DNA from: Candidatus Saccharibacteria bacterium UBA4215
GTDB lineage: Bacteria; Patescibacteriota; Saccharimonadia; Saccharimonadales; Saccharimonadaceae
DNA length: 10,101 nucleotides
NCBI GenBank assembly: GCA_002381485.1
Contig: DFTJ01000017.1
Location: forward strand, 11,996 to 22,096
Reading direction: 5' to 3'
Shown here: positions 1-10,101 of the stretch, one piece after another
How the letters are laid out: every line of letters begins with the position of its first letter
How positions within the stretch are numbered: the first letter of the stretch is position 1
Position numbers and translations under genes: made by a program
The notes under the pieces: model-generated
The model's database searches: none
What the model saw: the letters and a program-made list of their open reading frames with translations, nothing else
What the model was told of the DNA's origin: nothing

Positions 1-760
1 GATCCGTCAGCTCCTTCGTGATACCGAGTGACGGAGCGCCGAAGCGTACCCCGGCCTCGATGTTCGATTGGACAACGGGAAGCTCGCTCCTGAGCACTAC
101 ATCCGAACCAGCACGGCTCGAGATGAGTTGCCGGAGGTACTCCGCATACGTGGGCGGGTAGATCCCCACCGTTGCATGCATCGATCGCTTCTCTGTCTCG
201 GCACCGTGCCATCCTCCGGGCGGAATGTACAGGACATCGCCGACCTTTGTTTGGATCGTTGCCTCGATAGGCGGATCTACCTCCGGGTAGAAGCTTGGCG
301 CTTCCGGACTGGTGACGGCGACCTTGGGTCCGAGACCCCAGGTCTTCTCGCCGATGAGCTGCACTGCGAAAACGTGGTGGTTGTCGTAGTGCGGCCGAAT
401 GCCCTTGGCGGGGCCGGTCGATAGGAAGTAGTTCACCCTGACATTGGCGCCAGGAAAGACGTTCTTCCAATTGACCAGCGTGGTCTCTTCGGTGGTACCG
501 ACTGCGAGCTTGACCGTACCTTCCAGCTTCTCACCGTCGCAGAAGCGGCGGATCCATGCTTTCGTTTGTTCGGTCGACAGCTCGCTGAAGGTGCCGTCGG
601 GGTAATGCACAGATCCTTCGCCGATCTCGGCAAGTTCATTGAGCATTGCGGGCGTCATTTCTGGCGCAGTGGACGTCTTGCTGAGAGCCCAGGACTTGTT
701 CCAGTTGGTGTCGATGACACGCTGGAGGTCAACTCCTTCGGGCATGGGAAATTCGTGCAT
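1..760 (-). CDS. JmjC/cupin_4-type Fe(II)/2-oxoglutarate oxygenase, C-terminus cut by window
   Basis: Probable soluble dioxygenase of the cupin_4/JmjC superfamily (the RoxA/YcfD ribosomal oxygenase group), which hydroxylates proteins or peptides. 253 codons are visible and the frame is still open at base 1. The metal-binding triad can be read: H124-Y-D126 in RPHYDNHH, and H185 in the segment GDVLYIPPGGWHG (174-186). These match the HxD...H facial triad and the 'GD-LYIPPG--H' strand of the family. Residues 1-100 form an N-terminal extension of unclear role. The start ATG (758-760) follows a modest purine-rich AGAGAG; a second Met lies at residue 6. The gene sits 79 bp downstream of a 36-codon peptide gene on the same strand, which suggests co-transcription and possibly that the peptide is its substrate (inference). 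GC and codon use are clearly higher than in the middle of the window. The fold is fairly sure; the substrate is unknown. Confidence 0.75.
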   Translation of the reverse strand, partial: MHEFPMPEGVDLQRVIDTNWNKSWALSKTSTAPEMTPAMLNELAEIGEGSVHYPDGTFSELSTEQTKAWIRRFCDGEKLEGTVKLAVGTTEETTLVNWKNVFPGANVRVNYFLSTGPAKGIRPHYDNHHVFAVQLIGEKTWGLGPKVAVTSPEAPSFYPEVDPPIEATIQTKVGDVLYIPPGGWHGAETEKRSMHATVGIYPPTYAEYLRQLISSRAGSDVVLRSELPVVQSNIEAGVRFGAPSLGITKELTD

Positions 761-839: not shown

Positions 840-950
840 TCAGCTGTCCTGGCTCAGGATCTGGACGGACGACGGCGACGAGGTCGCCGACTCGTCCGAC
901 CACGCGCTGGCCGAAGTGGTCAGCAGGTCGTCGATGGTGTCTGCCATCAT
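840..950 (-). CDS. 36-aa Ser/Thr/Asp-rich peptide, candidate modified-peptide precursor
   Basis: A short gene with a near-ideal Shine-Dalgarno, GGAGG, 8 nt before the first of two consecutive ATGs (948-950 and 945-947). The product begins MMADTIDDLLTTS and ends SSVQILSQDS, with stop TGA at 840-842. It has no Cys, no membrane segment and no signal peptide. It is acidic and rich in Ser, Thr and Asp, with a single Trp at residue 17. The leader-like part (DTIDDLL) followed by a polar tail resembles the layout of ribosomally made, modified peptides. The downstream oxygenase on the same strand and the hairpin between them support that reading, but the peptide matches no precursor family I can name. 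It could instead be a leader peptide. The gene is likely real because of the ribosome binding site; the function is speculative. Confidence 0.6.
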   Translation of the reverse strand: MMADTIDDLLTTSASAWSDESATSSPSSVQILSQDS

Positions 951-2723: not shown

Positions 2724-3221
2724 CTAGACGGTGAGCAAGTTTCCGGCGATCAACCCAATCGCTGTTGCAATACCACCGATAACAAACACCTCGAGGGCAC
2801 TGCGAAGCGGCGACGCTCCGACTACCTTGCCCTTGGCGTATCCAAGAACGAGCAGACAGGTTAAGGACGCGGCAATGGCGACGTAGGCCGAGTATTCGAT
2901 GGGGAAAATCAGAACGGATAGAAGTGGCACGAGACCGGCGAGGAAGTAGGAGATAAACATGATGATGCCACTGATAGCCGGCATTTTAAAGGACTCCTTC
3001 TTGTCGAGCTGCCGAGCTGAGCGTAGGCTGAGGTATTGTCCCGAGCCCATGGAAAGGGCCTCGACTAAGATCGTCACAACACCTGCAAGGATAACAATAT
3101 CTTTGTCCCCTGTTCCGGCGGCAATACCGACGATCACACCTGTGGTAGACACCAAAGCGTCGTTAAAGCCGAACATTGCACTCTGAAGGTACTCTTTGTA
3201 GTTCTTAGTTATGTGTTTCAT
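2724..3221 (-). CDS. Short VIT1/CCC1-family iron/manganese transporter
   Basis: A 165-residue inner-membrane protein of the VIT1/CCC1 family, which moves Fe2+ or Mn2+ out of the cytoplasm in exchange for protons. Family signatures are visible: GFNDALVSTTGVIVGIAAG (18-36) in the first membrane segment and EALSMGSGQYLSLRSAR (54-70) in the second. Three more membrane segments follow (about 82-105, 108-130 and 145-163). Typical plant-type VIT proteins insert a long cytoplasmic metal-binding domain after the second segment; here only about 12 residues (QLDKKESFKMPA) join it to the third, as in short bacterial forms. The ATG (3219-3221) is 10 bp downstream of the mechanosensitive channel gene, so the two form an operon. 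Family assignment is secure; the metal carried is not determined. Confidence 0.88.
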   Translation of the reverse strand: MKHITKNYKEYLQSAMFGFNDALVSTTGVIVGIAAGTGDKDIVILAGVVTILVEALSMGSGQYLSLRSARQLDKKESFKMPAISGIIMFISYFLAGLVPLLSVLIFPIEYSAYVAIAASLTCLLVLGYAKGKVVGASPLRSALEVFVIGGIATAIGLIAGNLLTV

Positions 3222-4333: not shown

Positions 4334-5200
4334 CTACGCCGTGAGCGATACATTCACCAAGATGATAACAATCGTTACCACTGCGCCGACTGCGTAGTTG
4401 AGCCAGATAAAGCGCCGCCAGCCCTTATTGGCAGTAGATGATGTTTTATCAGTGATCGCGAGGTATGGAGCAACAATCGCTGCATAGCTCAGGCCAGCCA
4501 GCCCGACAAGGATGACCCAGCCCCCTTGCAGTAGCATCAGGCTTGAGGCGACAAGGTACAGTATAACGCTGAGCCAGACGGTGTTGCGCGCGCCAATGAC
4601 AGTTGCGATTGAGGCTAGTCCACCTTTGCGGTCTGGTATGACGTCTTGCACGGCGCCAAATGCGTGACTGGCAATCCCCCATAAGAACAGCGCGATGGCG
4701 TAGGGCCAGGCAGATTCGGCGAACCCAAATATAGCAATGGCGAACACCATCGGCCCTACAAAGTGGATACTGCTGGTAATCGAATCAAGAAACGGTTTCT
4801 CTTTAAAGCGCAGCCCCTTCAGGCTGTATGCGACGACAAAGAACAGTACTGCTAGCAAGATGAGGCTGGCTTGCCAGGAGGTCAAGAGTAGCAATACGAC
4901 CAGTGGCGGGAAGCTGAGCCAGAAAGCGGCTTTGAGGATTGTGGGGTGAAAACTGCGCGCCTCAGCGGATCCTTCGATACTATTCTTGCGGGGGTTCCGG
5001 ATATCGGATTCATAGTCGTAGACGTCATTTACTCCGTACATTAACAAGTTGTAAGGAACAAGAAAGAAGAGAGTCCCCAGGATAAACAGCGGGTCGATCT
5101 GACCGCCAAGTACGAGGTAGGTGGCGGCAAACGGATACGCGGTGTTCACCCACGAAATCGGCCGGGAGACCTTAAATAGTTTCCAGAGCGTTTCAAGCAT
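4334..5200 (-). CDS. crtEb: UbiA-family lycopene elongase (C50 carotenoid prenyltransferase)
   Basis: 288 residues, a polytopic membrane prenyltransferase with about eight membrane segments. It probably adds C5 units from DMAPP to both ends of lycopene to give an acyclic C50 carotenoid such as flavuxanthin. Both Asp-rich motifs are present: N58-D59-V-Y-D62-Y-E-S-D66 (NDxxDxxxD) and Q-D186-V-I-P-D190-RKGG. The frame is open upstream to 5320, but the ATG at 5198-5200 is chosen because it aligns with the family's short N-terminus and overlaps the cyclase stop by 8 bp (ATGCTTGA). It is the last gene of the crtE-B-I-Ye-Yf-Eb order seen in Corynebacterium, which is the main reason to prefer lycopene over quinone or other substrates. 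It could also be a bacterioruberin-type elongase/hydratase, but the cyclase pair next to it favours cyclic products. Confidence 0.85.
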   Translation of the reverse strand: MLETLWKLFKVSRPISWVNTAYPFAATYLVLGGQIDPLFILGTLFFLVPYNLLMYGVNDVYDYESDIRNPRKNSIEGSAEARSFHPTILKAAFWLSFPPLVVLLLLTSWQASLILLAVLFFVVAYSLKGLRFKEKPFLDSITSSIHFVGPMVFAIAIFGFAESAWPYAIALFLWGIASHAFGAVQDVIPDRKGGLASIATVIGARNTVWLSVILYLVASSLMLLQGGWVILVGLAGLSYAAIVAPYLAITDKTSSTANKGWRRFIWLNYAVGAVVTIVIILVNVSLTA

Positions 5201-5486
5201 CTTTACGTTCCCCAAGTTTATTCCATAGCAGCGGTACGGCGCAGGCGGCATACACGGCGTAGAAGAAGTCTTCGATTGGTGCGCCAAACAGCTTGATGCC
5301 CATAAGGAGGCTGTCGTCATACCCCACTACCCCTAGCCCAATAATAATCGGATCAAACACAGCGGTAAGTACTAGTAGCGTAGCGAGTGTCAGCCAGAAT
5401 ACCCTTGTGGGTTTGCTGAGTGTTTTTGGCAAGAAAAGAATCAGCGACAGTAGGAATACTAGATTAAGAATAAGGTAGGTAAACAT
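5193..5486 (-). CDS. crtYf: Heterodimeric lycopene cyclase subunit, second half
   Basis: 97 residues with three membrane segments (about 2-20, 28-50 and 68-87), one lycopene-cyclase domain of the CarR/TIGR03462 kind. The conserved FDPIIIGLGVVGYD (44-57) and APIEDFFYAVY (69-79) are visible; the PxE(E/D)xFF motif is the putative proton donor site in this family. With the preceding subunit it should form the membrane heterodimer that closes rings on the C50 chain. The ATG at 5484-5486 is used, overlapping the upstream stop by one base (TAATG). A longer open frame to 5537 would bury itself in the neighbour and has no support. It ends in TGA. Which ring is made (epsilon, beta or gamma) cannot be told from sequence. 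The e/f symbols follow gene order only. Confidence 0.85.
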   Translation of the reverse strand: MFTYLILNLVFLLSLILFLPKTLSKPTRVFWLTLATLLVLTAVFDPIIIGLGVVGYDDSLLMGIKLFGAPIEDFFYAVYAACAVPLLWNKLGERKDA

Positions 5487-5794
5487 TATGCTGCCCTCTT
5501 TTGCAAGAAGCGGTAGACCAATAACGCAACATAGCATAATAAGTAGAGGAAGAAGAGTTCTTCGATCGGAAACTCTGGGGCAATTCGATACGGCAATGCG
5601 AATTCAGATCCGCCGTGGAAGAAAATACCAAGTCGAATTCCAAGGATATCCCAAACAATGAACATCCCAATGATACTAAATAGCGTGACGGCAGTTCGCT
5701 TGGCATCGTAAAACCATGCGAGTGAGTAGCGCCAATCGACAAGCGTCAGGCAGGAGATCGAGAATACCAGTCCTGCGAGGTAGAGCCATTCCAT
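5486..5794 (-). CDS. crtYe: Heterodimeric lycopene cyclase subunit, first half
   Basis: 102 residues with three membrane segments, a lycopene-cyclase domain protein related to its downstream partner. Family residues seen are LVDWRYSLAW (18-27), IVWDILGIRLGIFF (46-59) and APEFPIEELFFLY (72-84). The last contains the PxEExFF motif shared with the partner's PIEDFF. Fungal and some archaeal enzymes carry both halves in one chain; here they are separate, as in Actinobacteria. It starts at ATG 5792-5794, overlapping the crtI stop by one base (TAATG), and ends overlapping the next subunit the same way, which suits translational coupling and equal amounts of the two subunits. The role is strongly supported by context. 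Confidence 0.85.
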   Translation of the reverse strand: MEWLYLAGLVFSISCLTLVDWRYSLAWFYDAKRTAVTLFSIIGMFIVWDILGIRLGIFFHGGSEFALPYRIAPEFPIEELFFLYLLCYVALLVYRFLQKRAA

Positions 5795-7314
5795 TATTTT
5801 TGCTTCCCTATAATTTTCGCTAGTGGCCCGGGCTGTCGGATGCCGCTAATCTTCTTATAGACAATTTCTGCACTTATAAGACACATCGGAAGCCCAATAC
5901 CCGGCATGGTGTTGCCGCCAACGTAGTACAGATTCTGCAATTTTTTGCTTTTTGGAGGAATACGAAACATAGCACTCTGCCCTAGTAAGTGTGACATGCC
6001 GAGGGCTGTTCCCTGCCAGGCGTTATAGCGAGCGGTAAAGTCGTCCGGTCCAAACAACGATTGGCTGACAATCTTTTTTGTTAGCTCCGGTTCGCCAATA
6101 GCGATGCCGAATTGGGTCAGGAAGTGCTCGGCAAGCGAGGCCTTCTTCTTTTCGGTCAAGTGCACACCAGTTGGAAGGGGCACTAGCACGAAGAGATTCT
6201 CGTGACTTTTCGGCGCGGTGGACGGATCAGTTGATGACGTTCGGCTGACGTACATCGAGGCAGACTTTGGGATTGTCTTGTGTTCATAAATGTTTTTAAA
6301 ATTATCTTGCCAGGCATCAACAAAAAAGAGATTGTGATGTTCTAGCTGTGGAAGTTTTCCTTTGACGCCGATGTACATTAGCAGCGCCGAGATGCCGGCT
6401 TCTTTCTTGTCCCAGGCTTTCTGAGGGTACGATTGAGCTTCGGGTGGCAGCAGGGCTGTTTCGGTGTGATGGAGGTCGGCGTTAGAAATGATGGTATCGG
6501 CATTAATTTGCGTGCCGTCGCGTAGCATAATGCCGGTGGCCTGCTTGCCGTTCGTTTGGATAGCAGATATATCGGCATTCGTGTGATACTGCACGCCGAG
6601 TTTTTTGCCAGTTGCTACTAGGAGCTCAATGATAGAATACATACCGTTCGAGGGGTAAAAGACGCCTTCCTTAAAATCGAGTGCGCTCATCAGGCTATAC
6701 ATCGCCGGGGCCTTGAAGGGTGATGTTCCCAGGAATACCATGGGGTATTCAAGGATTTGCTGCAAGGGGGTGCTTTTTACGAAGCTTTTGACGCGTGAGT
6801 GGATGGGCGTAGCCAAAAGTTTGAGCAACCGGGCGCTGCCTGCGACAACCTCTCCTTTTACGAGTTGGCTGGGGCGCGAAAAGTCTGTGTACAGGAAATG
6901 ACGGAGCGCGATGCGATAGATGTCATCGCCTTCTGCGACGTATTGGCGTAGCGCTTCGCCGCTCCCCTGCTCGATTGCTTCAAAGGTGGGCGCATCCTTG
7001 TTGACGTCGCCTTGAATGGTGACTGGGTCGTGTGACTCAAAGAAGACTTTGTAGGCTGGCGTGAGGCGCTTGATCGACAGCGCTGTATTGATATCAATAT
7101 CAAAGACGCGAAAATAATCCTCAAAGACCTTGGGCATTAGATACCAAGATGGTCCGGTATCAAACGTGAATCCGTCACGCTTCTTTGTGCCGGCTCGTCC
7201 GCCAAGCTGGTGGTTCTTCTCGTAGATATGGACGTCGTGGCCGTCGTTTTGTAGAAGGTTCGCAAGGGCTAGTCCGCCAATACCGCCGCCAATGATAATA
7301 ACTTTTTTTGTCAT
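5794..7314 (-). CDS. crtI: Phytoene desaturase (CrtI-type)
   Basis: 506 residues, the normal length for bacterial CrtI. It is an FAD enzyme, peripheral to the membrane, that converts 15-cis-phytoene to all-trans-lycopene in four desaturations. The N-terminus has the dinucleotide fold VIIIGGGIGGLALANLL (5-21), acidic E32 at the end of strand 2, and the CrtI-type GGRAGT and FDTGPSWYLMP segments (38-61). The C-terminus carries the second flavin-binding signature, YYVGGNTMPGIGLPMCL (463-479). No interruption is seen in between. The start ATG (7312-7314) lies one base after the crtB stop (TAGCATG). Some family members make fewer double bonds, but the elongase and cyclases downstream expect lycopene. 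Confidence 0.95.
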   Translation of the reverse strand: MTKKVIIIGGGIGGLALANLLQNDGHDVHIYEKNHQLGGRAGTKKRDGFTFDTGPSWYLMPKVFEDYFRVFDIDINTALSIKRLTPAYKVFFESHDPVTIQGDVNKDAPTFEAIEQGSGEALRQYVAEGDDIYRIALRHFLYTDFSRPSQLVKGEVVAGSARLLKLLATPIHSRVKSFVKSTPLQQILEYPMVFLGTSPFKAPAMYSLMSALDFKEGVFYPSNGMYSIIELLVATGKKLGVQYHTNADISAIQTNGKQATGIMLRDGTQINADTIISNADLHHTETALLPPEAQSYPQKAWDKKEAGISALLMYIGVKGKLPQLEHHNLFFVDAWQDNFKNIYEHKTIPKSASMYVSRTSSTDPSTAPKSHENLFVLVPLPTGVHLTEKKKASLAEHFLTQFGIAIGEPELTKKIVSQSLFGPDDFTARYNAWQGTALGMSHLLGQSAMFRIPPKSKKLQNLYYVGGNTMPGIGLPMCLISAEIVYKKISGIRQPGPLAKIIGKQK

Positions 7315-7315
7315 G

Positions 7316-8134
7316 CTATTTACCTCTCACCGCAACACCAGTAAGCAGGGCTACTTTTTGGACATCGGGAACTCGTATGCGCTGGTGTTTGAGCTTTTCG
7401 GCCGAAGTTCGTTCGATCTTATTGAGAAGCGTTTGGTAGTATTTGTAGCTTAATAGTACGGCTCGACGACAGGACGTTGGCAGTTTGTCGATGGCGGCTC
7501 GGCCAGCTTTTAGGTCGGTGCTGATGTCGGCAATAATGCGCTGTTTTTGCGTCTCGTCAAAACTCTCGTAGGAGCCAGTCGGAAAGTACCATCTGTTTAG
7601 TTCATCTGCGTCTGCAGCCAAGTCGCGCAGGAAGTTTACTTTTTGGTAGGCAGCGCCAAGTCGTCGAGCGCCACTGGCAAGCTTTTTGTAGGCTGATTCA
7701 TCATCTAAGAAGGCCTTCAGGCACATTAAGCCGACTACTTCAGCTGATCCATAGATATACGCATCGTACTTTTTCTTGTCGTAGGTTTGTGGCGAGAGGT
7801 CGGCGCGCATGCTACTAAAGAACGGTTCGATGAGCTGTTTGTTGATAGCGTAGCGACGAGCCGTGGTAGCGAATGCCTGGACGATGGGATTGGTGCTATA
7901 GCCGGTTGCGAGGGCGCGGTAGGTTTCTTGCTCGAGGTCGCCCAGTACGTCTTTGCTGTCATCTTTTCGGTTGGTATCTACAATTTCGTCGGCGATTCGC
8001 ACCAGCCCGTAGATGGCGTAGATATGTGGCCGTAACGGTGCATCAAACAGCCGAATACTTAAACCGAATGAAGTCGAATAGGCGTCGGTGATAATACGGC
8101 TCGCGGCGTAGGCGGCTTTGGTGTATTGCTCCAC
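7316..8134 (-). CDS. crtB: Phytoene synthase
   Basis: 272 residues, slightly short for the family (about 290-310). It condenses two GGPP head to head into phytoene. Both Mg-diphosphate motifs are intact: DEIVD (49-53) in the context GLVRIADEIVDT, and NFLRDLAADAD (167-177), followed by the expected WYFP. The start is GTG at 8132-8134, sharing one base with the crtE stop (TAGTG); no better Met lies nearby, and residues 1-30 align well with the usual N-terminus (YTKAAYAASRIITDAYSTSF). Squalene or diapophytoene synthase would be the alternatives in this superfamily, but the GGPP synthase upstream and CrtI downstream make phytoene the likely product. Confidence 0.93.
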   Translation of the reverse strand: MEQYTKAAYAASRIITDAYSTSFGLSIRLFDAPLRPHIYAIYGLVRIADEIVDTNRKDDSKDVLGDLEQETYRALATGYSTNPIVQAFATTARRYAINKQLIEPFFSSMRADLSPQTYDKKKYDAYIYGSAEVVGLMCLKAFLDDESAYKKLASGARRLGAAYQKVNFLRDLAADADELNRWYFPTGSYESFDETQKQRIIADISTDLKAGRAAIDKLPTSCRRAVLLSYKYYQTLLNKIERTSAEKLKHQRIRVPDVQKVALLTGVAVRGK

Positions 8135-9216
8135 TATTTATCTCGCTGTAAACACAAGTTGATAATCTGGTGGAATGCTTGACGATGGGCTTCATCGACA
8201 GAAAGCTGTTTTAGCAGGCTCAGTGATACTTCTTGGTATCCATCGATCATCTCTTCCAGAGCTTGTTTTGCGCCACTCTCCTTAAGGAGTTCGCGGGCAA
8301 CCTCAATCTCCTTGCTGCTCGCCTCGGCGTTGCCAAAAATGGTGTCAAAGTGAGTGCGTTGCTCGTCGCTGGCGCGTCGGTAAAATTCGTCAATTAAGAG
8401 CGTGAACTTTCCTTCGCGAATGTCGCCTTCGCTGCTCTTGCCAGTGAGTGCTTCGTTGCCGAAGACGCCAATGATGTCATCGCGTAGCTGGTAGGCAATT
8501 CCCAGCTGATGGCCAAGGTTCTGCAGGATATCCCGTTGTTCCTGTGGGGCCTCGGCCAGGGTTGCTCCCATCAAGAAAGGTGTGACAAATGAGTAGCTGG
8601 CTGTTTTTTGCTCGGCAATCACGAGCGGATGAGCGGCATCAGTTTTAAAGGTGGCTTCGGTATCAAGGAGTTCGCCGCTAATCACGTGGAAGATAGCCTT
8701 TGCAAGCAGGCGTTGGGCCGACAGTACGGCAGTTGGGTTAGCCTGTGTCTCGGCGATCAAGATAAAAGCCTCTGAAATAAGCAGATCTCCTGCTAGCATG
8801 GCGCTGCTTTGGGCGAAGTGGGTGCGATCAGCCTCGGGGAGGTTCTTGTAGTGATCAAGATACTGTGCAGTGATGTTCTTGACCCCATAGCGGGTAAAGT
8901 CGCGGTCAATCACGTCATCTTGTATCAACATTGCGAGGTGAAGGAGCTCTTGGGCGGCAGCTGATGGCAGAATAGATTCGATGGGTGCGTCAGAATAAGC
9001 GCTAAAGATGAGCAGCGTCATATATGAGCGCAGGCGCTTCCCGCCCGCTTGTTGTAGATTGACGATCGATTGCCACAGCGCGCCGTAGGAAGGATCTATT
9101 GCGCCCGCCTCTTCGGCTTTCATGGCAATTAATGGCAGCAAGAATGCATCTATCATCTCTTTGGACTGGGTAGGATGAAAAGGCGTTTTTACAGATGGCG
9201 TGGCGACCTGTTTCAT
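8134..9216 (-). CDS. crtE: Geranylgeranyl diphosphate synthase
   Basis: A 360-residue trans-prenyltransferase that extends allylic diphosphates with IPP to C20 GGPP, the first step specific to the pigment. Seen are GGKRLRSYMTLL (58-69), the first Asp-rich motif DDVID (100-104) in LAMLIQDDVIDRD, and the second, QLRDDIIGVFG (243-253), followed by K260 and GDIREGK (264-270). The second motif's DDIIG form and the 'TGKSSEGDIREGK' context are like actinobacterial IdsA/CrtE. The first gene of the operon, it starts at ATG 9214-9216 just downstream of an extended -10 (9225-9233). The GGAG there lies at the expected transcription start, so the message may be nearly leaderless. No IPP-forming enzymes are in the window. 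Chain length is inferred from context. Confidence 0.93.
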   Translation of the reverse strand: MKQVATPSVKTPFHPTQSKEMIDAFLLPLIAMKAEEAGAIDPSYGALWQSIVNLQQAGGKRLRSYMTLLIFSAYSDAPIESILPSAAAQELLHLAMLIQDDVIDRDFTRYGVKNITAQYLDHYKNLPEADRTHFAQSSAMLAGDLLISEAFILIAETQANPTAVLSAQRLLAKAIFHVISGELLDTEATFKTDAAHPLVIAEQKTASYSFVTPFLMGATLAEAPQEQRDILQNLGHQLGIAYQLRDDIIGVFGNEALTGKSSEGDIREGKFTLLIDEFYRRASDEQRTHFDTIFGNAEASSKEIEVARELLKESGAKQALEEMIDGYQEVSLSLLKQLSVDEAHRQAFHQIINLCLQRDK

Positions 9217-9224
9217 GTATCTCC

Positions 9225-9233
9225 ACTATAGCA
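9225..9233 (-). promoter_or_regulatory. Extended -10 promoter of the carotenoid operon (TGCTATAGT)
   Basis: TGCTATAGT on the minus strand is one base from the TGnTATAAT ideal. The -10 ends 8 nt before the crtE ATG, so transcription should begin 0-4 nt before the start codon. No -35 of quality is seen. The palindrome GACCA-AGGG-TGGTC (9240-9253) occupies the -35 zone and could bind a regulator. Confidence 0.65.
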
Positions 9234-9239
9234 TGGAAT

Positions 9240-9315
9240 GACCAAGGGTGGTCTCAAAAAAGCCTCAGAAAATGAGAAGGACCCAGACGCTCGAAAGCGA
9301 ATGGGTCCCTTGGTC
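9240..9315. repeat. 76-bp block bounded by 9-bp inverted repeats
   Basis: GACCAAGGG (9240-9248) and CCCTTGGTC (9307-9315) are exact inverted repeats that bracket the terminator hairpins. The octamer TGGTCTCA also recurs directly at 9249-9256 and 9311-9318. This could be a nested terminator structure or a small palindromic element inserted between the GC-rich surface gene and crtE. Confidence 0.55.
9256..9311 (-). terminator. Double terminator after the surface protein gene
   Basis: In the minus direction a bulged stem comes first: TGGGTCCCTT (9302-9311) against AAGGACCCA (9277-9285), with an inner CGCT/AGCG and a CGAA (plus-strand) loop. A short CTCA/TGAG hairpin follows (9264-9276), then a run of six T (9256-9261). 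It lies about 70-120 bp past the surface protein stop and 40 bp before crtE, so it isolates the carotenoid operon from the gene upstream. The 9319-9378 stretch holds nothing I can name. Confidence 0.75.
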
Positions 9316-9378
9316 TCATCTTGCGATGCTACCGACGCTCACCGCTGGCTTGCGGGAGCGAATGTGTTGCGTGTTGAC

Positions 9379-10101
9379 TTACTGCAGTGCGTTGCGACGG
9401 CGGACTGCCGTAGCGATGACCACGATGATGCCGACGATCAGCGCGAACATGCCGATGACGCCAGCTGCTGCGATGTTCGCGTCCAGACCGGTTGAAGCCA
9501 GAACACCAGAGCCCTCAGGCTCTTCGGTGGGAGGCTCTTCCTCGGCGGGACAGTCGACCGCAGCGATGCTGACGTCCTGCTGAAGTGCGCGACGCTCCTT
9601 GTTGCTGACTCCACCGGTGATGGTGAAGCGGTAGTCGTCCGCGGGCAGGTCGACGACAGTCGTCGTGTACGTCTCGCCGGGGGCGAGGGTCACGACTTCG
9701 TAGTCGACGATCTCTCCCGGAGCTCCGGTGGTGCCGTCGAGATAGTAGAACGTCTCGGCGGTTCCGCCAGTTCCGTCACCGAGCGACTTGAATCGCACGG
9801 TAGTGGAAAGGCCCTCGTCGCCAGCCGTGAGGCTGAACGTGGCGCTGCCACCCTCGATGTCACCAGGTGCGACACAGACTTCGTCCGTGCTGTCGCTGGT
9901 GCTCGTGTTGGGCAGCGGGTCGGCGCAGTCCGTGTCGACCGTGTCCGTGAACGGCCCCGAGTTGATGTCCGACTCGGCTTCGAGCTTGTCCTGGTAGGTC
10001 ACCAGAACGGAGCCGTTGTTGTAGTCCTCGTCGAACGCCTTCTCGAAGATGACCTTCGTCTCCCCGGGCTCCACCCTCACTGTGGTGTAGTACGGGAAAC
10101 C
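9379..10101 (-). CDS. LASTG sortase-anchored surface protein, N-terminus cut by window
   Basis: The C-terminal 240 residues of a cell-wall protein; the frame is open at the right edge, so the GTG near 10080 is internal. From the C-terminus backward it has a basic tail RRRNALQ, a membrane segment of about 27 residues (ANIAAAGVIGMFALIVGIIV onward), and the sorting motif LASTG, the LAxTG form used by class E sortases of high-GC Gram-positives. An acidic Pro/Glu spacer precedes these (EEEPPTEEPEGSG). Outside the wall lie two related Ig-like modules, each with a PGET turn, an acidic DEDY or ADDY strand and a closing DC: the first ends in VDTDC, the second in AAVDC. Sequence use is strongly GC-rich. 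It is followed by a terminator, so it is not part of the carotenoid operon. The ligand or role is unknown. Confidence 0.8.
   Translation of the reverse strand, partial: GFPYYTTVRVEPGETKVIFEKAFDEDYNNGSVLVTYQDKLEAESDINSGPFTDTVDTDCADPLPNTSTSDSTDEVCVAPGDIEGGSATFSLTAGDEGLSTTVRFKSLGDGTGGTAETFYYLDGTTGAPGEIVDYEVVTLAPGETYTTTVVDLPADDYRFTITGGVSNKERRALQQDVSIAAVDCPAEEEPPTEEPEGSGVLASTGLDANIAAAGVIGMFALIVGIIVVIATAVRRRNALQ

Follow-up and report, generated by a model that had tools for sequence, protein, structure and literature searches.

A 10,101-bp stretch of Candidatus Saccharibacteria bacterium UBA4215 (contig DFTJ01000017.1, here C6, positions 11996–22096; hereafter the window) carried six intact, tightly coupled genes at window positions 4334–9216 on the minus strand, in the order crtE-crtB-crtI-crtYe-crtYf-crtEb. 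We read this locus as a saccharibacterial operon complete for the synthesis of a cyclic C50 carotenoid, fed by isoprenoid diphosphates from outside the cell, and give this reading a probability of about 0.7. The evidence comprised the gene order and family matches, the conservation of catalytic motifs, the loss of precursor-pathway markers from the genus, and a marker gene on the same contig. The assembly consisted of 664,051 bases in 31 contigs and was 93.48% complete and 0.06% contaminated. Papers are cited by PMC number and throughout from excerpts.

Gene order and family assignments

Neighbouring crt genes, all on the minus strand, overlapped by at most 8 bp or were separated by a 1-bp gap. 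The first, crtE (8134–9216, 360 aa), encoded a trans-prenyl (probably geranylgeranyl) diphosphate synthase that matched PF00348 at 158 bits (cut-off 27) and was the sole match to this family in the whole assembly; its top PDB match was the geranylgeranyl pyrophosphate synthase 3lk5 (E 1.5e-36). The GTG start codon of crtB (7316–8134, 272 aa) overlapped the crtE stop. Its phytoene synthase-like product (PF00494, 146 bits, cut-off 26) contained the motifs DEIVD and RDLAAD, and its PDB matches were headed by CrtM (8is6) and included phytoene synthase 5iys. crtI (5794–7314, 506 aa) encoded a phytoene desaturase (TIGR02734, 494 bits, cut-off 238) with PDB matches to the gamma-carotene desaturase 4rep and the phytoene dehydrogenase 4dgk.

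Two small genes encoded the subunits of a two-part carotenoid cyclase. The crtYe-like subunit (5486–5794, 102 aa) scored 44.8 bits against TIGR03462 (cut-off 39.4), and its PxEE motif was invariant across a 12-sequence alignment. For the crtYf-like subunit, the longest open reading frame (ORF; 5193–5537), which matched PF18916 at 39.5 bits, was probably over-called. An ATG at 5486, overlapping the stop of crtYe in the sequence TAATG, was preferred as the real start, giving a gene at 5193–5486 of 97 aa; the TIGR03462 score of 45.9 bits (cut-off 39.4) was obtained on the longest ORF. The last gene, crtEb (4334–5200, 288 aa), encoded a lycopene elongase-like protein of the UbiA family (PF01040, 93 bits). 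It scored 376.8 bits against PRK13105 (cut-off 217), a model titled simply “prenyltransferase”, so that elongase activity is predicted; the same cut-off was passed by the CrtEb proteins of the congener UBA6175 and of the actinobacterium Naasia. A PDB search with CrtEb gave no match at E 0.01.

Catalytic motifs were read by aligned columns in rows taken from 21 chosen loci, the window among them. The CrtE motifs DDxxD and DDxxG and the CrtB motifs DExVD and RDxxxD were kept in 20/20 rows each, and the CrtEb motifs NDxxDYESD and QDxxxD in 19/19. Strict patterns were matched by fewer relatives (first CrtE motif 18/19, second CrtE motif 9/19, second CrtB motif 12/19), but in the aligned columns these relatives, too, retained the key residues. 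The six genes of the window differed from those of UBA6175 (G011) at 56–64% of third codon positions and at 9–28% of second positions, as expected under purifying selection.

An extended -10-like element, TGCTATAGT (9225–9233, minus strand), ended 8 nt before the crtE ATG. We infer that this candidate near-leaderless promoter serves the operon, all of which is apparently read from it. TGNTATAGT was found in 6 of 11 stretches upstream of crtE, the window counted; the remaining five were inspected by eye, and four showed another -10-like hexamer while the start codon in the fifth (L026) was probably miscalled. The original prediction of a six-gene operon of cyclic C50 type, with this span, strand and order, with readable catalytic motifs and with a near-leaderless promoter, was thus borne out, the start of crtYf being corrected.

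Supply of precursors

Markers of the known routes to isopentenyl and dimethylallyl diphosphate (IPP and DMAPP) were searched for in 17 genomes of the window's genus and in 14 control genomes. HMG-CoA reductase was matched in 0/17 genus genomes and 5/14 controls, IspH in 0/17 and 10/14 (nine of these over cut-off), and the GHMP_kinases_N domain in 0/17 and 14/14. Members of this domain family should include mevalonate kinase, phosphomevalonate kinase and IspE, which makes mevalonate salvage improbable as well unless these enzymes have diverged. An endogenous IPP/DMAPP supply, a trait of the known producer Corynebacterium, was therefore not detected in the genus by any of the three markers. With the markers of both the mevalonate and the methylerythritol phosphate pathway gone from the genus, the likeliest source of the C5 diphosphates, or of larger prenyl ones, is the host or the surroundings, and the pigment precursors would probably be imported as isoprenoid diphosphates. 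The late pigment steps would thus be retained in the cell, and the early ones outsourced.

A single PF00348 trans-prenyl synthase was present in 14/17 genus genomes, and for all 10 crt carriers this was the crtE of the operon. Non-carriers G006, G014 and G015 had a CrtE copy 59–60% identical to that of the window, and G009 one at 42%; no crt neighbours were found around these four genes in the 16 kb fetched. The lone prenyl synthase fits the statements that classes of the candidate phyla radiation (CPR) other than Gracilibacteria are apparently capable of C10–C20 isoprenoid synthesis only (PMC9166423), and that a rhizosphere Saccharibacterium without an isopentenyl diphosphate pathway likely scavenges its precursors (PMC6031116).

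G038, a member of another family, had a complete gene for IPP isomerase (L028, 7400–7948; TIGR02150, 133.9 bits, cut-off 105.8) placed tail to tail with crtEb. Saccharibacteria or Saccharimonadales names were attached to its database record and to one relative at 61%. An IPP isomerase beside the operon is as expected if the cell receives a C5 diphosphate. Idi-1 homologues were matched by the isomerase query in 35/65 actinobacterial loci and in 1/12 named saccharibacterial loci, a rough contrast since the loci differ in length.

Precursors made in the cell by an unrecognised route, and not imported, could also account for the missing markers, which leave room for a novel or very diverged pathway; the import machinery itself is putative. 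Such a route is nevertheless unlikely, since no GHMP kinase of any kind, no HMG-CoA reductase and no IspH was matched, and since Saccharibacteria are typically genome-reduced and dependent on a host. The claim that the organism “makes its own pigment” should be qualified as to the building blocks, the genus having no markers of the known precursor pathways.

Several points weigh against a cyclic C50 pathway fed from outside. The genus genomes were 77–99% complete and single absences are weak alone, yet the three markers agreed in all 17. No PF00348 match at all was found in G003, G005 and G007 (3/17), so not every member of the genus makes such use of a prenyl supply. IPP isomerase was searched for in 60 kb of the window's genome, and none was found there. 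CrtE and CrtB fell below every curated NCBIfam cut-off (for CrtB, those of the equivalog models), so chain length and product at these two steps are read from context. Homology of CrtEb is, by itself, no proof of C50 elongation.

Predicted product and its role

In the proposed pathway, CrtE would form geranylgeranyl diphosphate, two molecules of which CrtB would couple to phytoene, and CrtI would desaturate phytoene to lycopene. CrtEb would put a C5 unit on each end of lycopene, and CrtYe and CrtYf would close the end rings to give a yellow, decaprenoxanthin- or sarcinaxanthin-like membrane pigment. The predicted product is thus a membrane-bound C50 diol with cyclic ends of the epsilon, gamma or beta type, and it may act in membrane ordering or in protection from oxidants. 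The names of several carriers suggest what we take to be groundwater or wastewater sources, and such origins would speak against the pigment being there for light alone.

CrtEb and LyeJ are both elongases of the UbiA type, and the operon might instead make an acyclic C50 carotenoid of the bacterioruberin type, with the cyclases acting little or on side products. In favour of this, lyeJ, crtD and cruF are reported in Patescibacteria, including a Saccharibacterium (PMC9948471). However, both cyclase subunits are encoded between crtI and crtEb, are kept in relatives and are constrained at their codon positions, making an acyclic product quite unlikely.

A role as retinal precursor, which the original prediction proposed alongside one as antenna, was not upheld. 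Blh (PF15461) was matched in 0/17 genus genomes and type-1 rhodopsin (PF01036) over cut-off in 0/17, with a weak sub-cut-off match in G006; no control genome matched in either search. The presence of crtEb within the operon points to C50, and no blh was found in Saccharibacteria genomes encoding rhodopsin, according to the excerpt of PMC9296517. In favour of a link to rhodopsin, heliorhodopsin was detected in 6/17 genus genomes, the window's own included (5/10 crt carriers vs 1/7 others), but these counts are too few for an association to be claimed. A retinal role is unlikely for the pathway, and serving retinal or an antenna, with a C40 cyclic carotene feeding a rhodopsin, is a very improbable purpose for the operon. 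Among the crt carriers, heliorhodopsin genes lay at G000:C26:15285-15990 and at G004:C6:35476-36204, the latter some 9 kb away from the crt genes of that genome.

Genome of origin

The C50-type carotenoid operon very probably belongs to a Saccharibacterium. The gene for elongation factor EF-G was located at C6:102201-104279, on the same 118-kb contig as the operon. Its product was 92% identical to that of UBA6175 and fell in the genus clade with support 98/99, grouping with congeners including UBA6175. The CrtEb proteins of the two genomes were 83% identical. A VIT-family protein (PF01988) encoded beyond the operon end (2724–3221, minus strand) was a neighbour common to UBA6175 at 82% identity, and this shared neighbour supports a single genome of origin for the window. 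A search of the bin for 16S found none. The placement in Saccharibacteria made in the original prediction agreed with these results: instead of pointing to an ordinary pigmented actinobacterium, the marker gene on the contig is saccharibacterial, and in trees of CrtI and CrtEb the window proteins grouped with Saccharibacteria.

An assembly chimera or a binning contaminant from a pigmented actinobacterium, to which the guanine-plus-cytosine (GC) content near 0.60 in the window flanks against about 0.50 inside and the likeness of the crt enzymes to actinobacterial ones might point, was ruled out for practical purposes by the saccharibacterial EF-G on the same 118-kb contig and the same operon in many separate Saccharibacteria assemblies; further, the operon matches most of the contig's first 60 kb in GC content, and window CrtI and CrtEb lie outside the actinobacterial clade.

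Distribution and variants in the class

The same six genes, in the order seen in the window, were found in 9 of 13 related loci fetched by CrtI match. Two of the other four (L020 and L025) were cut by contig ends, and L029, on a short contig, and L030, a 20-kb locus with a CrtI about 30% identical, showed CrtI alone. Among 12 loci named Saccharibacteria, Saccharimonadia or Patescibacteria, nine had all six genes and three were cut by contig ends; the two sets overlap, four genomes being in both. CrtI was matched in 14/61 genomes searched, the window's own included: 10/17 in the genus, 1/20 in the rest of the family and 3/24 in the rest of the order. In 392 Saccharimonadia genomes drawn evenly from the class, the cyclase family passed its cut-off in 44, and 33/152 genera had a match, indicating that the pathway is patchy but widespread. 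Not all cyclase carriers were of the window type; in other orders, crtI lay on the strand opposite crtYe-crtYf-crtEb. The view that such a pathway is unexpected in this group needs to be toned down, given these 44/392 genomes and the acyclic C50 genes published for Patescibacteria (PMC9948471); the presence of the pathway itself stands.

Several variants were observed. A fused two-domain lycopene cyclase was encoded at L156 5350–11318 (G322) and L157 7637–9752 (G380), and the 18 kb retrieved contained no crtEb; a C40 (beta-carotene-like) route may thus be present in some Saccharibacteria. At L156 the cluster ran crtI-crtB-crtY-crtE and was followed by a 124-aa ORF without a match and then a DNA photolyase gene. 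G004 had a second, stand-alone crtYe-crtYf pair (L158, 8230–8825) on a contig other than that of its main operon. A fusion of a CrtEb-like protein with a family 2 glycosyltransferase (L161, 8366–10399; PF01040 and PF00535), seen in another order of the class, suggests a glycosylated C50 carotenoid. Window-type crt genes grouping with those of Saccharibacteria were also seen on contigs labelled Chloroflexi (L034), uncultured bacterium (L035, in the CrtEb tree only) and bacterium (L040), which are probably misbinned or unlabelled Saccharibacteria.

Origin and exchange of the operon

Quick, midpoint-rooted trees of CrtI and CrtEb were built, in which the 80 named loci were the best of the matches listed for a saccharibacterial query; among these there was no Corynebacterium, Dietzia or Haloarchaea. 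In the CrtI tree, 60 actinobacterial rows formed one side of a branch with support 99, and 27 window-type saccharibacterial rows were set apart by a branch supported at only 68. L100, L030 and L113 (two long branches and one duplicate) were left out of this tree, and L034 and L040, of uncertain label, were counted as saccharibacterial; with the three rows kept, the saccharibacterial rows were not shown to be monophyletic. In the CrtEb tree, the actinobacterial clade (support 98) fell inside saccharibacterial diversity, beside G295, G311, G231 and G077 (supports 88–89). A recent transfer from an actinobacterial host was not supported, window CrtI and CrtEb being outside the actinobacterial clades. 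Given sampling skewed towards the query and an uncertain root, the claim is limited to the lack of any sign that the operon passed recently from host to symbiont.

Within the class, the operon was compared with EF-G, which was usable in 26 of 30 genomes searched (the G319 row, in a wrong frame and with a 10-unit branch, was left out). The tree of the crt operon, in which 6 of 23 rows held only 20% of columns, agreed with EF-G on the pairs G102+G347, G195+G152, G008+G016, G012+G013 and G231+G295. The G004 operon grouped with those of G102 and G347 with support 100/98. A constraint placing all nine genus rows in a single crt clade was rejected by the approximately unbiased (AU) test (p 0.003) but not when G004 was omitted (p 0.27), and the EF-G data rejected the trio G004+G102+G347 (p 0.0007), a trio named only after the tree was seen. 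Purely vertical descent was thereby ruled out for one case, the G004 operon. Other pairs also appeared mismatched, G127+G157 and G023+G392 in the crt tree corresponding to G157+G023 and G392+G109 for EF-G. With the G004 operon displaced at strong support and some other pairs differing, some lateral exchange has occurred.

In a wider form of the host-fed reading, whose chances we put at about even, C5 (or C10–C20) diphosphates would be imported and turned into the cell's own cyclic C50 carotenoid. The trait would be old, present in many genera of the class and inherited with some exchange, and it would be shared through an ancient transfer, in either direction, with Micrococcales, an order that includes plausible hosts.

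Flanks of the window

Both flanks of the window were higher in GC. A patch of GC 0.59 extended over window 2–760 and 840–950 (both minus strand) and L002 10326–12755. It encoded a JmjC/cupin protein (PF08007), ahead of which stood a 36-aa ORF with abundant Ser, Thr and Asp by eye, and also held a nucleotidyltransferase-like ORF (by eye) and a methyltransferase (PF13649). This patch has the look of a cassette acquired by transfer, possibly one that makes a modified peptide. At the other end, window 9379–10101 (minus strand), running into L003 to about 3663, encoded the C-terminal part of a large surface protein with GC of about 0.57–0.64, which gave no NCBIfam or Pfam match. It is probably secreted. 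Its C-terminus consisted of LASTG, a membrane helix and RRR, an ending that, as we take it, resembles that of an actinobacterial sortase substrate.

Comparison with known systems

The decaprenoxanthin operon of Corynebacterium glutamicum, crtE-cg0722-crtBIYeYfEb, is co-transcribed (PMC3598387). As the original prediction had recognised, the window encodes the same six enzymes in the same order. It has no cg0722 between crtE and crtB. In contrast to C. glutamicum with its CrtR (PMC5401885, PMC7432914), no recognisable MarR-type regulator was found just upstream of the window operon; two divergent ORFs there (9238–9583) gave no Pfam family match. The window further differs in its near-leaderless promoter and in that the known precursor pathway was not found in its genus.

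Among the matches listed, the closest crt clusters outside Saccharibacteria were those of Micrococcales (Arthrobacter, Microcella and Demequina), with CrtEb 50–56% identical. Their loci mostly had the gene order of the window, some without crtE in reach, and their proteins formed a clade separate from the window proteins in the CrtI and CrtEb trees.

Two systems described within CPR bacteria are comparable. The lyeJ, crtD and cruF genes of Lake Baikal Patescibacteria, including a Saccharibacterium, are likewise C50 genes, but according to the excerpt of PMC9948471 their predicted product is acyclic and they do not form one cluster, whereas the window encodes a predicted cyclic pathway in one operon. 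Saccharibacteria rhodopsins, which may use outside retinal (PMC9296517), likewise constitute a pigment system dependent on an outside isoprenoid; there the finished chromophore would be imported, whereas the window encodes enzymes from C20 or lower onward. Acyclic (bacterioruberin) C50 genes in Patescibacteria have thus already been published (PMC9948471), and the window adds a predicted cyclic operon in a genus where precursor-pathway markers are missing; no report of a cyclic operon or of its distribution in Saccharibacteria was found among the matches listed in the open-access literature.

CPR bacteria are usually defined by their losses. Here, a six-enzyme secondary pathway has been kept under constraint in many Saccharibacteria, while the markers for its building blocks are gone from the genus. 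The pigment offers an easy way to examine what such cells contribute to their own membranes, the making of which has been called enigmatic (PMC9166423). If its input is derived from the host, the flow of metabolites to the episymbiont could be followed through the pigment, which is coloured and can be traced chemically.

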